The position numbers were made by a program, and so were the translations under genes. Below, piece by piece: positions 5,191 through 62,322 of a stretch of 64,000 nucleotides of DNA. The notes below the pieces were generated by a model, which saw only the letters and a list, made by a program, of their open reading frames with translations, ran no database searches and had not been told where the DNA came from. Positions within the stretch are counted from its first letter, which is position 1. The number at the start of each line of letters is the position of its first letter. The stretch spans positions 620,001 through 684,000 of the forward strand of contig NZ_SOQX01000001.1 in assembly GCF_004366735.1 (NCBI RefSeq), given 5' to 3'. The stretch is from Thiohalophilus thiocyanatoxydans (GTDB taxonomy: Bacteria > Pseudomonadota > Gammaproteobacteria > UBA6429 > Thiohalophilaceae).

Positions 5191-5253
5191 GTCTTTATCT
5201 CCAAATTCAGTTTCAAATTCTTAACCGTTCTTTAATGAACGCTCTGGAATTCA

Positions 5254-5323
5254 GTGACGAGTGCCGAGTTACGAGTAACGAGGGGGGATGTCCTCGTCAC
5301 TCGTCCCTCGTGACTCGGCCCTG
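5254..5323. repeat. Inverted GACGAG-type arm pair between cbbL and cbbS
   Basis: The left arm 5254-5283 is a 7-base-period array (GACGAGT/TACGAGT/AACGAGG). The right arm 5292-5323 is its inverse and ends in CGGCCCTG, directly abutting the cbbL stop codon at 5324. Only 8 bases separate the arms, so the transcript can form a long hairpin between the cbbL and cbbS messages. Confidence 0.8.
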
Positions 5324-22061: not shown

Positions 22062-22130
22062 TTAAATCAACGCTCGCCCAGGAAATAAAGCCGCATCATA
22101 ACATTACTCGACTGCCGCTACCTGTCGGGA

Positions 22131-22187
22131 GTCGGGAGTCGGAAATCGGAAATCGGAAATCGGAAATCGGAAATCGGAAATCGGAAC
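22131..22187. repeat. 7-base tandem array (GAAATCG)
   Basis: About six GAAATCG units preceded by GGGAGTC variants and followed by ACTCAGCACTCCG. The ACTCAGC end supplies the stop codon and last residues of the HDOD gene (stop at 22188-22190). Confidence 0.9.
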
Positions 22188-23045
22188 TCAGCACTCCGTC
22201 AGTTCCGGGTGCATCGCCTGCAAAACATACTGCAGCGTCTGCCGGGACTCATCGGTCAGGTCATCCCCTTCGCCGGGGTCCAGATCCAGCATGTCCCAGA
22301 TACGGGTATCGACAGGCAGATCGGCATTCGGGCTGATAGGAGCTTCAATGGTGTTACCGATGGCGTTGGCCAGATACACGATAGCGGATTGTCGGATGTC
22401 GTGTTTCGCCAGGGCGGGTTGATGATGAAGGGCTACCGCTTCGATCACCGCTTCGGGCATGCGCCATTGGTGCAGCAAGAGGGCGCCAACTTCGGCATGG
22501 TCCGCACCGAAGAGATCCCGCTCAATGTGGCACAGCCTGTTCTCACCCTGACGGGCCCGGGCCAGAACCTCGCGGGATTTTTCTGGTCCCAGTAAATACA
22601 TCACCAGTTTACCCATATCGTGGAGCAGACCGGCGATAAACAGGCGCTCGGTATTCGCGATCTGCATGCGTTCGCCCACAGTCCGGGCGGCACTGGCCAC
22701 GGCGAGGCTGTGGCGCCAGAATTGTTCTGGGGTGACCACGCCTTCGGGGAACTGGTTGTATTGTCTGATCAGGGCCGTGGCCATGACAATGTCTCTCAAC
22801 CCGTGCGGGCCGACAAGGGTGATGGCCGTGGAAATATCGTCAATCTGTGGTGGCAAGTTATAAAAGGGACTGTTGACGATTTTCAGGATACGGTTTGTCA
22901 GTGTGGTATCTTGCTGAAGTATTCCGGCGATATCCGCGGTACTGCAGGCGAGATCGTTGATCATCGTGTTAAGACGCGCGACGATGCCGGGCAGAGTAAT
23001 CTCTTCCAGGCGGTCATAAAGCCGGGGGTCGATAGCGGGCGCCAT
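22188..23045 (-). CDS. HDOD-domain signalling protein
   Basis: A 285-residue HDOD protein. The HDOD core runs about 15-210, with LPGIVARLNTMINDLACSTADIAGILQQDTTLT, the NSPFYN motif and LFIAGLLHDMGKLVM containing the H-D pair. Lacks GGDEF/EAL domains. HDOD proteins act in signalling and stress regulation; partners unknown. Its C-terminal residues and stop are formed by repeat DNA, suggesting the original 3' end was altered. Confidence 0.9.
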   Translation of the reverse strand: MAPAIDPRLYDRLEEITLPGIVARLNTMINDLACSTADIAGILQQDTTLTNRILKIVNSPFYNLPPQIDDISTAITLVGPHGLRDIVMATALIRQYNQFPEGVVTPEQFWRHSLAVASAARTVGERMQIANTERLFIAGLLHDMGKLVMYLLGPEKSREVLARARQGENRLCHIERDLFGADHAEVGALLLHQWRMPEAVIEAVALHHQPALAKHDIRQSAIVYLANAIGNTIEAPISPNADLPVDTRIWDMLDLDPGEGDDLTDESRQTLQYVLQAMHPELTEC

Positions 23046-39408: not shown

Positions 39409-39856
39409 GGGACGAGGTACGAGGGACGAGTGGCGAGGAAGATCAAAACCCGGGCTTCTCGATCGTAATTCCTATATAAATAAACTAACCACGAAGGCTC
39501 GAAGACACGAAGTTTTTAGTCTTTAATCCTTCGTGCCTTCGTGCCTTCGTGCCTTCGTGCCTTCGTGCCTTCGTGCCTTCGTGTCTTCGTGGTTAAGGGT
39601 TTCCTCGTTACTCGTCCCTCGTCACTCGGCCCTGTGTTTTAGTGGTAGGCCGGACATAGCAAAGCGGTGTCCGGCAACCCGGGAGATGCCCGATACCGCG
39701 TTGCTATATCGGGCCTACCTGCTTGTTCCAGTATAAATAAATCAACCACGAAGACGCGAAGTCACGAAGATTTTCAGTCTTTAATCCTTCGTGTCTTCGA
39801 GCCTTCGTGGTTAAGGTTTTACTCGTTACTCGTCCCTCGTCACTCGGCCCTGTGTT
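39409..39856. repeat. Nested repeat block between speD and coq7
   Basis: Outer GACGAG arms 39410-39438 and 39602-39634, inside which CGAAGACA-type arms lie at about 39487-39512 and 39528-39597 (right arm expanded to six GCCTTCGT units). Then a GTAGGCCGGACATAGC hairpin element (39641-39720), another CGAAG arm pair (39743-39771, 39788-39815) and a second right-hand GACGAG arm (39820-39852) almost identical to the first. It ends next to the coq7 stop codon. Confidence 0.85.
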
Positions 39857-43137: not shown

Positions 43138-43680
43138 AAAACAAAGTTGGCAGATGGCAGTTCGCAGTCGGAAGTCGGAAGTCGGAAATCGGAAATCGGA
43201 AATCGGAAATCGGAAATCGGAAATCGGAAATCGGAAATCGGGATGGGAGGAGCGCCTCCGGCGCGAAAGACCGTGCAGCCCGATAGACTGTCGCGGCTGG
43301 GTCGCTCTCGGCTCACTGTAGAACCCCTTCGGGTTTCATTCAGTATTTCCTCGCGTTGCTCAGGTCATGTCTCATAGAACCCCTGTGGGTTTCATTATGA
43401 GTACCCTACCTATCTCCGATAGGTCAGGGCACCATGCCTCCCGCGACAGAGCCCGCCCCGCGAGCAAGGCGAGTGTTTTGGGTGTTAGTACATCCATGTA
43501 CGTCAAGCCCCTCCCACAATGGCCCTGGCTTTGTGGGAGGCGATTACATCGGCGACCGATCGTGCCACACGGCAAGATCTATCACGGCAAAGCTCCTGCG
43601 ATCGATGGGGCCGGGTTTTGATTTTCCTCGTCCCTCGTAACTCGTCCCTCGTCACTGCTGTCCGAACGGGCAAGGATTAT
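43138..43680. repeat. Repeat-rich gap between the ferredoxin gene and the hydrolase gene
   Basis: No gene. Contains a TTGGCAG-type left arm (43147-43165), a GAAATCG array (about 43175-43228), REP-like GGAGCGCC...GGCGCGA hairpins (43240-43300), two AGAACCCC..GGGTTTCAT hairpins (about 43320 and 43377), further GTGGGAGGCGATTAC-type sequence, and one right-hand GACGAG arm (43625-43656). Confidence 0.75.
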
Positions 43681-44333: not shown

Positions 44334-44686
44334 CTGGCAGTCTGCAGATGGCAGTTCGCAGTTATACGACTTCCAGAGTCCGGAGTCCGGAAGAGCGGCT
44401 TCGCCGCGATGGGCCTTGCCGGGCGGTACGGTCTATCGCGCCGGAGGTGCCCCTACAGCTTTACTGTGCAAGGTGCTTTTCCTCGTCACTCGTTCCTCGC
44501 CCCTCGCCCCTGCGTCCGAAGGACGCCGGGAGGGGCTTTCAGCCGCGACAATCATCGGGCTGTATGGCCTATCGCGCCGGAGGCGCTCCTACAGTTTCCG
44601 GCATGGGGTTATACTTCTGCCAACTGCCAACTGCCAACTGCCAACTGCCAACTGCCAACTGCCAACTGCCAACTGCCAACTCAGCC
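44334..44686. repeat. Inverted TGGCAGT / AACTGCC arm pair with REP-like insert
   Basis: Left arm about 44334-44364, right arm an array of about eight AACTGCC units (44628-44681). Between them are two REP-like GGAGGTGCC/GGAGGCGCTCC elements and a partial GACGAG arm. The array ends 5 bases from the stop of the toxin gene. Confidence 0.85.
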
Positions 44687-44977
44687 CTACCACTGACCAG
44701 GGATCCGTCGAGCCAGATGAAAAACACGTAGTATTTCGATTTGTTGCAATCGTGGGCGAACCCGGTAGGGAATAATGTAGCGGGTGTTGGGAATCAGGAG
44801 CTCCCGGGTGCCGGGAACCCGTCCTACCCGGCCCAGAGCCGGGTTGTCTGCCAGTAGGCTGATGCTGTGTTCGATCCGCTGAACGACGAGTCGGGCCGCC
44901 TCGGGATCCTCATTCGCGATATAAGCGGCTTCCTGTTCGAGATTAATCAGCGCCTTCCGTAGCCACTTTATCCGCAT
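44687..44977 (-). CDS. parE: RelE/ParE-family toxin
   Basis: A 96-residue protein with the ParE/RelE fold signature: MRIKWLRKALINLEQEAAYIANEDPEAARLVV at the start (helical hairpin), NPALGRVGRVPGTREL, and YIIPYRV...IEILRVFHLAR at the end. Follows its antitoxin gene by 3 bases. Toxins of this family block gyrase or cleave mRNA; which one is not determined. Confidence 0.9.
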   Translation of the reverse strand: MRIKWLRKALINLEQEAAYIANEDPEAARLVVQRIEHSISLLADNPALGRVGRVPGTRELLIPNTRYIIPYRVRPRLQQIEILRVFHLARRIPGQW

Positions 44978-44980
44978 GGA

Positions 44981-45217
44981 TTACCTCAACTTGTCGAATA
45001 CCGCTTTGACTTCTTCATCCGGGGCAAAGTCCCCGGCGTCGGCCTCATTAATTGCGGCTTCAGTTTCGCGGATTTGCCATTCGTTCAGTTCGATGAAATC
45101 CCGTACCGCCTCCGTGGCGAGATAGGATTTACTCCGGTGGGTGATTTTGGCAAGCCTGTCCAGACGTGACTTGAGCTCGGCGTCCAGGCGGATGGTCATG
45201 GTGGTGGACTGTGACAT
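44981..45217 (-). CDS. Ribbon-helix-helix antitoxin (CopG/ParD type)
   Basis: A 78-residue protein starting MSQSTTMTIRLDAELKSRLDRLAKI, the ribbon-helix-helix DNA-binding motif, with SKSYLATEAVRDFIE and an acidic C-terminus (ADAGDFAPDEEVKAVFDKL) that would wrap the toxin. Likely represses the pair. Sits directly upstream of the ParE-like gene. Confidence 0.9.
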   Translation of the reverse strand: MSQSTTMTIRLDAELKSRLDRLAKITHRSKSYLATEAVRDFIELNEWQIRETEAAINEADAGDFAPDEEVKAVFDKLR

Positions 45218-45285
45218 GCAGCCTCCTCAGAGGGATGTTCGAGTGTACACATTATAACACAACCCGGTGCGCCCGGCGGGCGCAC

Positions 45286-45459
45286 AGTTACGAGGGGCGA
45301 GTGGCGAGGGACGAGTGAGAGGAAAAGCCTGCTCCAAAAGTCTGTAGGAGCGCCTTCGGCGCGACAGACCGTGCCGCATGGGAAGATATATCGCGGCGCA
45401 GCCGCTTTCAGAAGCGGTTTTGACCTTCCTCGGACCTCGTAACTCGTCCCTCGGCCCTG
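45286..45459. repeat. GACGAG-armed cassette enclosing a REP pair
   Basis: Left arm about 45289-45321, right arm 45429-45459 ending CTCGGCCCTG. The insert is a REP-like pair: TGTAGGAGCGCCTTCGGCGCGACAG (45343-45367) and an inverse GCGGCGCAGCCGC half (45391-45403). Confidence 0.8.
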
Positions 45460-45552
45460 TGCCCGACCAGGCCTGATGCCGTCATGCTGAAAGCTGGTAA
45501 CCCTTGTTTTTTATAGGAAAATTCTCGACTAAAAAAATCGGGCACCTGGGGC

Positions 45553-50919: not shown

Positions 50920-51215
50920 TTCCAGTCACGAGTAACCAGGGGCCGGGCTTTACTGCTTTGCACTAATCTGTCCAATACCACGCTATCGGATCAAGCAGGT
51001 AGGCCCGATATAGCACCCTTCGGGTAGCAACTCTGCGGTATCGGACCCTTTTCAGGGGTGCCGGACACCGGCTCATAACAGGGACGAGTTACGAGGGCCG
51101 AGTGACGAGGAAAACACAACACATAAGGTGCGGTTCTCGTACCATTGTTCTGCTAACTGCTAACTGCTAACTGCTAACTGCTAACTGCTAACTGCTAACT
51201 GCTAACTGCCAACTG
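50920..51215. repeat. Repeat block upstream of yqaA
   Basis: Partial GACGAG-like arm (50927-50945), a TAGGCCCGATATAGC hairpin element (51000-51065), a left-hand GACGAG arm starting CAGGGACGAG (51080-51110), and a GCTAACT array of about eight units (51150-51210) that runs into the yqaA start codon. The inverse partner arm of 51080-51110 is at about 51938-51967, downstream of yqaA. Confidence 0.85.
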
Positions 51216-51872
51216 ATGACTGATTTAACGTCATGGTCGCTGTTCCTCAGCGCCTTCCTCTCTTCCACACTGCTCCCCGGCGGCTCCGAAGCGGTGCTGG
51301 CGTACCTGACCCGGGCGCAGGGACATGAGCTCTGGTGGCTGCTGGCCGTGGCGTCCGTGGGCAATACGCTGGGCGGGATGACGTCATGGCTGGTGGGGCG
51401 GGTTATCGCGATCCGTTATCCGCCTATTGCCAGTGACGAGGTGCGAGGGACGAGTAACGAGGATTCATCAGATCACCTCCCCCTGACCCCCTCCTTGGAG
51501 GAGGGGGAAAACTCGCCGGGCAGTTCAACCATTCCCTCCCCTTCAAGGGGAGGGTCAGGGTGGGGTGATAAGCATCAAACCGCAGCGACCGATGATTCGG
51601 AGTTGATGGTGCGTGGAACGCACCCTGCCGAAGCGACGGAAGCGCGGGTTTTTCCTCGTCCCTCGCCACTCGTACCTCGTCCCTCACCAAAGGCGTTGGA
51701 ACGGCTTCGCCGCCGGGGCGCGCCGATCCTGTTATTGTCCTGGCTGCCGATCATCGGTGATCCCTTGTGTGTGGCGGCGGGATGGCTGCGGATTCACTGG
51801 CTGCTCAGCCTGGTGTTAATCGGGATCGGCAAGACAGCCCGTTATGCGGTGGTGGTGTTTGTGTTTATGTAG
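51216..51872 (+). CDS. yqaA: YqaA/DedA-like small membrane protein interrupted in frame by a repeat cassette
   Basis: The ends match YqaA (about 140 residues): FLSSTLLPGGSEAVLAY, GNTLGGMTSWLVGR at the start and LERLRRRGAPILLLSWLPIIGDPLCVAAGWLR at the end. Between them, residues about 73-158 are not YqaA-like and are encoded by repeat DNA (51431-51688). The frame is unbroken, giving 218 residues. The insert falls in the loop between membrane segments where E. coli YqaA has a short linker, so the protein may still work. The start codon abuts a GCTAACT array. Confidence 0.85.
   Translation: MTDLTSWSLFLSAFLSSTLLPGGSEAVLAYLTRAQGHELWWLLAVASVGNTLGGMTSWLVGRVIAIRYPPIASDEVRGTSNEDSSDHLPLTPSLEEGENSPGSSTIPSPSRGGSGWGDKHQTAATDDSELMVRGTHPAEATEARVFPRPSPLVPRPSPKALERLRRRGAPILLLSWLPIIGDPLCVAAGWLRIHWLLSLVLIGIGKTARYAVVVFVFM
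51431..51688. mobile_element. GACGAG-armed repeat cassette inserted in frame inside yqaA
   Basis: Left arm 51431-51462 and inverted right arm 51654-51688 enclose paired CCTCCCCCTGACCCCCTCC (51479-51497) and GGGGAGGGTCAGGGTGG (about 51549-51565) stretches and a GTGCGTGGAACGCACC hairpin. The same architecture occurs between genes at 42602-42813. Its position inside a conserved gene shows that such cassettes insert as units. Confidence 0.8.
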
Positions 51873-51879
51873 TGCGGTG

Positions 51880-52345
51880 ATTCGGGGTTGACGGTGCGTG
51901 AGACGCTCCCTACGGCTGATGGGCAGGGATGTTTTACCTCGTCACTCGGCCCTCGTAACTCGTCACTGCCCGTAGTGGTAGGCCGGACTGAGTACCCTTC
52001 GGGCATAAACTCCGCGGTGTCCGGCATCTCGAAAAATGCCCGATACCGCTTCGCTATATCGGGCCTATCTGCTTCGTGTCTTCGTGGTAAGAAATCGTTC
52101 GATAGATAGAATGTCAGGTAGCGCTACGCGCAACCTGACCTACGCTTGCACTCAGCACTCAGCACTCAGCACTCAGCAGCCAGATCGCCGGACACCGCTT
52201 CGCTATGTCCGGCCTACATGTTTTGTTCGAAAGCTGCCAACTGCCATCTGCCGACTGCCAACTTTGTTAATCCATAACCTCCTGAATCCAAGGGCATTAT
52301 GTCCCGATTGCCTGTTACGCCCTCTCCGGGCGCATGTTAGAATAG
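51880..52345. repeat. Repeat-rich gap between yqaA and the DUF3683 oxidoreductase gene
   Basis: No gene. Holds a GTGCGTGAGACGC hairpin, a right-hand GACGAG arm (51938-51967), TAGGCCGGACTGAG/ TATCGGGCCTA hairpin elements (51970-52070 and 52188-52222), a CTTCGTGTCTTCGTGG half arm (52074-52091), a GTCAGGTAGCGC REP-like element (52108-52147, inverse of 20169-20208), an ACTCAGC array (52150-52178) and an AACTGCC array (52232-52262). Confidence 0.8.
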
Positions 52346-56266: not shown

Positions 56267-56500
56267 GGCGGAGTTGGCAGTTGGCAGTCGGCAGTTCGCA
56301 GCGTTAGCAGGTAGGCCCGATATAGCGAAGCGGTATCGGGCATTTTTCGCTATAAGGACAAGCGCCTTGGACCGAAGCTCTCCAGAAGCACCTTCGGCGT
56401 GACAGGCTGTGCGGTTGGCAGAAGCCATCGCGGCAAAGCCGCTCCTACCTCATAATTTCACTGCCAACTGCCAACTGCCAACTGCCAACTGCCAACTCGC
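56267..56500. repeat. Inverted TTGGCAG / AACTGCC arm pair
   Basis: Left arm 56272-56301 (AGTTGGCAGTTGGCAG...) and right arm 56461-56497 (five AACTGCC units). The insert carries a TAGGCCCGATATAGC element (56311-56345) and a REP-like pair (56386-56450). Confidence 0.85.
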
Positions 56501-58796: not shown

Positions 58797-59118
58797 TACT
58801 AGGTGCTAGGTGCTAGGTGCTAGGTGCTAGGTTCTAGGTTCTAGTAAAAGCTTGATGGTCGCAAGTCTGTAGGAGCGCCTTTGGCGCGAGAGATCGTGCG
58901 GCCGGCCAGGCTGTCGCGGCTGAAAGCCCCTCCCACGCACTTATCGGACAACGCGGTTATACTTGCCACTCAGCACTCAGCACTCAGCACTCAGCACTCA
59001 GCACTCAGCACTCAGCACTCAGCACGTAGGCCGGACATAGCGAAGCGGTGTCCGGCAACCCGAAAAATGCCCGATACCGCGGAGTTTATGCCCGCAGGGT
59101 GCTATATCGGGCCTACCT
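58797..59118. repeat. Repeat block between the ECF region and the DUF2905 gene
   Basis: A CTAGGTG array (58799-58845), a REP-like pair (58867-58938), an ACTCAGC array of about eight units (58968-59022), then TAGGCCGGACATAGC / TATCGGGCCTA hairpin elements (59025-59118). No gene. A solo CTAG array lies at 59344-59372 after the DUF2905 gene start. Confidence 0.85.
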
Positions 59119-61919: not shown

Positions 61920-61959
61920 GATTTTCCCGGGATTTTTCCCGTTCTACAGCCGATGTCGC

Positions 61960-62322
61960 CTATTTTTTCTTGCGACGGGCTGTTTTCTTCTTGGTTTTTT
62001 TCTTGGCCACCTTCTTCTTGGCGACTTTCTTTTTCGCCTTTTTCTTGGCGACTTTCTTCTTGGCCTTCTTCTTGGCTACCTTCTTCTTAGCCTTTTTCTT
62101 GGCCACCTTCTTCTTGGCCTTCTTCTTGGCTACCTTCTTCTTAGCCTTTTTCTTGGCGACCTTCTTCTTGGCCTTCTTCTTGGCTACCTTCTTCTTAGCC
62201 TTTTTCTTGGCAACCTTCTTCTTGGTTGCGCGTTTCTTAGCGACTTTTTTCTTCGCTACCTTTTTGCGAGAAGCGGTTTTCTTCTTCGCGACTTTCTTCT
62301 TGGCTTTTTTCTTCGTTGCCAT
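61960..62322 (-). CDS. Histone H1-like, lysine-rich repeat protein
   Basis: A 120-residue protein made almost entirely of Lys, Ala and Val, with tandem nine-residue units of the form KKKAKKKVA, more variable at the N-terminus (MATKKKAKKKVAKKKTASRKK). It should bind DNA or RNA non-specifically, like AlgP or bacterial H1-like proteins. The DNA also repeats, with a 54-base period (two 27-base units), so its length may vary. ATG at 62322 is preferred to one nine codons earlier. Confidence 0.85.
   Translation of the reverse strand: MATKKKAKKKVAKKKTASRKKVAKKKVAKKRATKKKVAKKKAKKKVAKKKAKKKVAKKKAKKKVAKKKAKKKVAKKKAKKKVAKKKAKKKVAKKKAKKKVAKKKVAKKKTKKKTARRKKK

Follow-up and report, generated by a model that had tools for sequence, protein, structure and literature searches.

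The yqaA gene of Thiohalophilus thiocyanatoxydans (genome G000) carries a lineage-specific composite insert in frame, in which two convergent four-unit GACGAG arrays enclose dispersed palindromes. The gene lies in a 64,000-nucleotide stretch of DNA, referred to below as the window. We hold with moderate confidence that the insert is ancestral and tolerated and has been kept in frame by selection in G000, and that the gene was destroyed later in the same-genus genome G001. The initial annotation had described a YqaA-like sequence interrupted by about 85 codons with inverted GACGAG arms, in a frame that stays open to the normal C-terminus, and both points hold. The two arms are 86-88% complementary, the segment missing from homologues corresponds to about residues 72-157, and 84-86 codons (about 51432-51684) are foreign to the gene. 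Its limits of 51431-51688 are right to one base at the start, but the end runs 3-4 bases into probable YqaA sequence. The features of the locus are as follows.

51080..51110 (+): outer 5′ GACGAG arm upstream of yqaA, with a G001 counterpart on the same side
51216..51872 (+): yqaA-like ORF (VTT domain, insert included), 218 amino acids with no internal stop
51216..51431 (+): N-terminal YqaA half, residues 1-72, predicted helices 1-3 (orthologue alignment and model)
51432..51462 (+): 5′ arm, AG followed by the units TGACGAG, GTGCGAG, GGACGAG and TAACGAG and a final G
51472..51509 (+): 5′ half of the inner palindrome (ATCACCTCCCCCTGACCCCCTCC...), one side of an inverted pair, dispersed elsewhere in G000
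51532..51569 (+): 3′ half of the inner palindrome (TTCCCTCCCCTTCAAGGGGAGGGTCAGGGTGGGGTGAT), the other side of the pair; most G000 matches cover this part
51590..51629 (+): third module, likewise dispersed (GATTCGG..GATGGTGCGTGGAACGCACC), with a further copy at 51875-51912 and several in G001
51654..51684 (−): 3′ arm, four heptamers, the inverse of the 5′ arm by inverted-repeat comparison
51685..51872 (+): C-terminal YqaA half, about residues 157-218, predicted helices 4-6 (orthologue alignment)
51937..51968 (−): outer 3′ GACGAG arm downstream of yqaA, nesting with 51080-51110 around the gene

Besides the inner pair within the gene, yqaA is enclosed by the outer convergent arm pair (51080/51937). 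The inner inverted pair (51472-51509/51532-51569), which is of the CCCTCCCC type, is 82% complementary, and GTSNEDSSDHLPLTPSLEEGENSPGSSTIPSPSR is an example of a peptide that translation of the insert would yield. As RNA, the insert is predicted to form one long nested hairpin of −143.6 kcal/mol (z = −9.1), and none of 200 shuffles was as good. An Rfam search returned only chance miRNA-like matches far below gathering scores.

Sequence alignment shows that both YqaA halves are about 60-73% identical to their orthologues. The N-terminal half is 64% identical to the G012 orthologue (G012 residues 4-67), and the C-terminal half is 62% identical to that of G012 and 73% to that of G010. The window protein retains each of the 14 positions that do not vary among 35 homologues. 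Its Pfam VTT match is weak and split (E 3e-5, below cut-off), as expected of a domain interrupted by the insert, and the conserved core residues and six-helix arrangement seen in the alignment and the AlphaFold model place the protein in the VTT/YqaA family. The model, which was built from 36 sequences, predicts helices at residues 4-19, 23-34, 39-67, 158-176, 178-190 and 195-217, with residues 68-157 forming an essentially unstructured excursion between intact helices. The block pLDDT is about 79-94 for the flanking helices and about 48-63 for insert residues 71-150. The insert is located in the short loop connecting predicted helices 3 and 4.

Within the family, 17 other genomes match an uninterrupted YqaA orthologue, and all the intact ones align gap-free. 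In the class, YqaA orthologues are found in 79 of 274 genomes, uninterrupted save the window's own, that of G185 and some weak or partial matches, and 80 named YqaA loci give normal-length matches, a few partial ones excepted. This insert is present in none of the other YqaA sampled among these family, class and named loci. A long variable loop as a general feature of YqaA, which the initial annotation had raised as the competing explanation, was sought among the homologues and is absent, the natural helix 3-4 loop varying by only a few residues across the alignment. Since the orthologues are uninterrupted and the natural loop length is nearly constant, the extra segment is an insertion specific to this lineage and not a family loop.

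G185, a distant genome from another family of the class, has about 50 extra residues in frame in the same YqaA loop. They are encoded by two tandem 63-nt copies of a CCCTCCCCCGC..GGGGGAGGG palindrome, which is of the same kind as the CCCTCCCC palindrome inside the window insert and lacks GACGAG arms, and yqaA of the genus-mate G296 is uninterrupted. The G185 insert is independent of the window insert. Since a different palindromic insert sits in this loop in G185, the YqaA helix 3-4 loop is evidently permissive. In agreement with this, the proposal that the inserted segment can be tolerated as a protein loop is plausible in view of the modelled excursion between intact helices and of the G185 case. 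A second copy of the C-terminal end of G185 yqaA lies about 800 bp away and is 91% identical (L096:1251-1343 and 2047-2139).

G001, the only same-genus genome compared, has about 86% aligned identity to G000 in syntenic DNA, and each of the two was sampled as a 400-kb stretch. Its yqaA is broken into an N-terminal piece, 73 bp of the C-terminal end (90% identical) and a third piece about 700 bp further. The third piece consists of GCAATTCGCTATCCGCTCATTGC (AIRYPLIA) followed directly by CAGGGACGAGG, which corresponds to the window 5′ junction 51431|51432. This AIRYPLIA-arm junction has 18/24 identity and is the only site with at least 18 matches in 800 kb on both strands besides the window's own; among 339 arm-flank comparisons, the next best reaches 12/24. 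Since the AIRYPLIA piece of G001 abuts an arm at the same junction base, the insertion is probably older than the G000/G001 split. The uninterrupted yqaA expected in close relatives is found among the family orthologues but not in G001, where the gene is fragmented and apparently shares the 5′ junction.

The middle and C-terminal pieces of yqaA differ between G000 and G001 by 8.5 synonymous and 3.5 non-synonymous changes, giving a dN/dS of 0.12 (P 0.004, or 0.03 under a transition-only null, from 12 changes in only 31 codons). The N-terminal piece is more diverged between the two genomes and is not conserved. The mostly synonymous divergence fits selection acting on the interrupted gene. These observations lead to a plausible sequence of events. 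An arm pair would have entered yqaA before G000 and G001 diverged, and other palindromes would afterwards have accumulated or been exchanged between the arms. Being hydrophilic, variable in length and remote from the conserved core, the loop would tolerate the insert. In the G000 lineage, selection would hold the frame open to produce a VTT protein with a disordered excursion of 85-90 residues, and in G001 a later repeat-linked rearrangement would have destroyed yqaA.

The open frame may instead be a matter of luck, with G000 yqaA already decaying as in G001 and having acquired no stop yet, an unlikely alternative that nevertheless deserves serious weight. Openness alone is weak evidence for a tolerated insert, since about 7% of frames are open by chance (4 of 60 orientation-frames among arm-bounded segments of at least 200 bp) and only a third of insertions preserve phase. 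Almost no stops occur on the CTCGT strand of the arms, and of 126 arm-pair frames 16 are open. Two further points go against tolerance: the insert would place a hairpin of −144 kcal/mol in the yqaA mRNA, and yqaA appears dispensable, having been lost in G001, with a patchy distribution in the family, where it is found in fewer than half of the genomes, some of which are incomplete. However, no invariant YqaA residue has been lost, the G000-G001 differences around the junction and at the C-terminus are mainly synonymous, and an ancestral insertion would mean that the frame remained open along the whole G000 branch.

It is improbable that the two genomes record independent events, with a recent insertion in G000 and, in G001, an AIRYPLIA-arm junction produced by chance or by a separate insertion at a favoured site. 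Local re-insertion is conceivable, since arms are concentrated around yqaA in more than one genus (G000, G001, G041 and G023), and the interiors differ, but a junction match of this quality is unique in 800 kb and falls on exactly the same base. The arm-rich neighbourhood may have supplied the yqaA arms by local recombination.

The arm unit follows the pattern [GT]GACGAG, or more broadly [GT][GTA][AC]CGAG, with a period of 7 and about four units per array, those of G041 being longer. Heptamer arrays of at least three units number 49 in 400 kb around the window, compared with 3 in each of three Markov-1 simulations. All 27 arm pairs within 500 bp (11 and 16 in two 400-kb stretches) are oriented + then −, and none − then +. 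Perfect matches to the pattern number 113 in G000, 187 in G001 and 126 in G041. Arms occur in 11 of 40 family genomes and in only 3 of 398 phylum genomes, the window's own included. A literature search with the GACGAG unit returned aptamer papers only. A GACGAG arm pair also lies at 5253-5322, between apparent RuBisCO small and large subunit genes, and occupies the same place in G001. In the 400-kb sample, further arm pairs seemingly inside genes, in ORFs of 832, 820, 719, 302 and 164 amino acids, look antisense or intergenic when the frames are judged by eye, and the intergenic sites behind them include gatA-gatB and cbbL-cbbS.

The initial annotation took the locus as evidence that such a cassette inserts as a unit, a view that the repeats do not bear out. 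The whole 255-bp cassette is single-copy across the G000 and G001 stretches sampled, while its arms, inner palindrome and third module each recur separately. Nearly all of the 42 G000 interior matches listed, own site included, are to the palindrome module, many without the rest. Palindromes are enriched within arm pairs, which make up about 0.6% of the G000 stretch but contain 5 of its 18, and about 0.9% of the G001 stretch with 4 of its 7; these fractions are of all DNA and not of intergenic DNA. In two cases, including an orthologous site with arms kept, the same arm site holds another interior in G000 than in G001, and in G041, G009 and G022 each sampled interior is different by eye. Since interiors differ while arm sites stay, the arms seem to be a lasting shell and their contents to have come and gone later. 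At about 44700-45490, an apparent small parDE-type toxin-antitoxin pair accompanied by an arm pair (by eye) is absent at the syntenic G001 site.

A search for empty sites in the G000/G001 chain alignment revealed no clean presence or absence of an arm pair and no target duplication, the gaps being mostly repeat turnover or unrelated indels. The junction had been expected to reveal a target-site duplication; none is visible at the yqaA junctions when the gene is set against its more distant uninterrupted orthologues. In these orthologues, the (R/K)YP motif and the next helix are separated by about 12 residues. Since the window keeps only about 7 of these outside the arms, about 5 codons were probably lost at the insertion.

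That the insert is a MITE (a non-autonomous transposon) with GACGAG terminal inverted repeats, inserted once and complete, is also improbable. The terminal inverted repeats, defined ends (mostly CAG..CTG), uniform inward polarity, more than 100 arms per genome and patchy taxonomic distribution would suit such an element, but the interior changes among copies (G041, G022) and between orthologous sites, the cassette has no second copy, no target-site duplication is visible, arm lengths range from about 2 to more than 10 units and are independent on the two sides, and Y1 transposase genes are as a rule not associated with arms. Y1 transposases, which the transposase look-up covered, were also considered as an arm mobiliser and set aside: they are present in G012 without a perfect arm match and mostly lack nearby arms in G000 and G001. 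As a long shot, convergent heptamer arrays could be not transposons but scars of a form of end-extension or break repair. If each of the two 3′ ends at a break received the same heptamer, this would account for arms that always face inward, lengths that are independent on the two sides, interiors of any kind and the lack of a visible target duplication.

Xanthomonas genomes carry GGGAATC heptamers in arrays of about four units, dozens to more than 100 per genome and mostly intergenic (Rehm et al. 2015, PMC4692102); many form inverted convergent pairs, and the pair type is conserved between related species (PMC4692102). The window arms share the period of 7 with about four units and the convergent orientation, but their unit is [GT]GACGAG, not GGGAATC, and has no G-quadruplex motif. 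Unlike the Xanthomonas pairs, the yqaA pair surrounds further palindromes and sits in frame within a conserved gene. Rickettsia palindromic elements (RPEs) form families of about 150 bp that encode a conserved peptide and lie in frame in many unrelated genes (Ogata et al., PMC10969869). The yqaA insert resembles them as a palindrome in frame in a conserved protein gene, apparently tolerated, but the whole insert is single-copy and is found in one real gene in the 400-kb sample, not in a repeated family. Compared with REP/RAYT systems, which are GTAG-tagged (PMC3733652), the same genomes carry GTAGGAGCG palindromes, and such modules also occur within arm pairs, whereas the yqaA palindromes and arms have no GTAG tag and no consistent link to a Y1 transposase. 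Locus L237 of G001 has a Y1 transposase gene amid a dozen GTAGGAGCG palindromes spaced about 90 bp apart, which is a REP/RAYT array.

A (CTAACTG)n heptamer array at 51153..51215 (+) runs into the yqaA ATG with no obvious Shine-Dalgarno sequence between, and G001 has a similar array at the same place before the yqaA start. It resembles the TAACTGA arrays of Beggiatoaceae and cyanobacteria, which are dispersed and often directly upstream of start codons (MacGregor 2015, PMC4679880); unlike the GACGAG arms, TAACTGA arrays are direct repeats and almost never inverted pairs. Other period-7 families in the window are GGAAATC, one base off the Xanthomonas GGGAATC unit, CCAACTG, CTCAGCA and GCTAGGT, with arrays at 22110-22210, 43139-43253, 44620-44677, 52151-52178, 56457-56493, 58797-58830 and 58969-59024. 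A period-8 CTTCGTGC family is found at 39513-39596, and long imperfect 12/15-nt repeats at 61958-62320 (−) apparently encode a lysine/alanine-rich repeat protein.

This kind of repeat is known from Xanthomonas and in-frame palindromes are known from Rickettsia; what is new is their combination, the nesting, the inferred pre-split age and the parallel case in G185. Overall, the yqaA insert can be described as a palindromic, protein-coding insertion that is RPE-like but new in its anatomy. In-frame palindromes in protein genes are best known from Rickettsia, and here they appear in a lineage whose closest named relatives belong to the Gammaproteobacteria. If the break-repair reading of the arms were true, such scars could act as landing shells for other palindromes and become lasting parts of proteins. 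The yqaA gene gives heptamer-repeat pairs a codon-anchored, datable insertion site, and should the insertion be ancestral, which the evidence favours, a segment of 85 codons derived from repeats has persisted in a membrane protein across one speciation or more.
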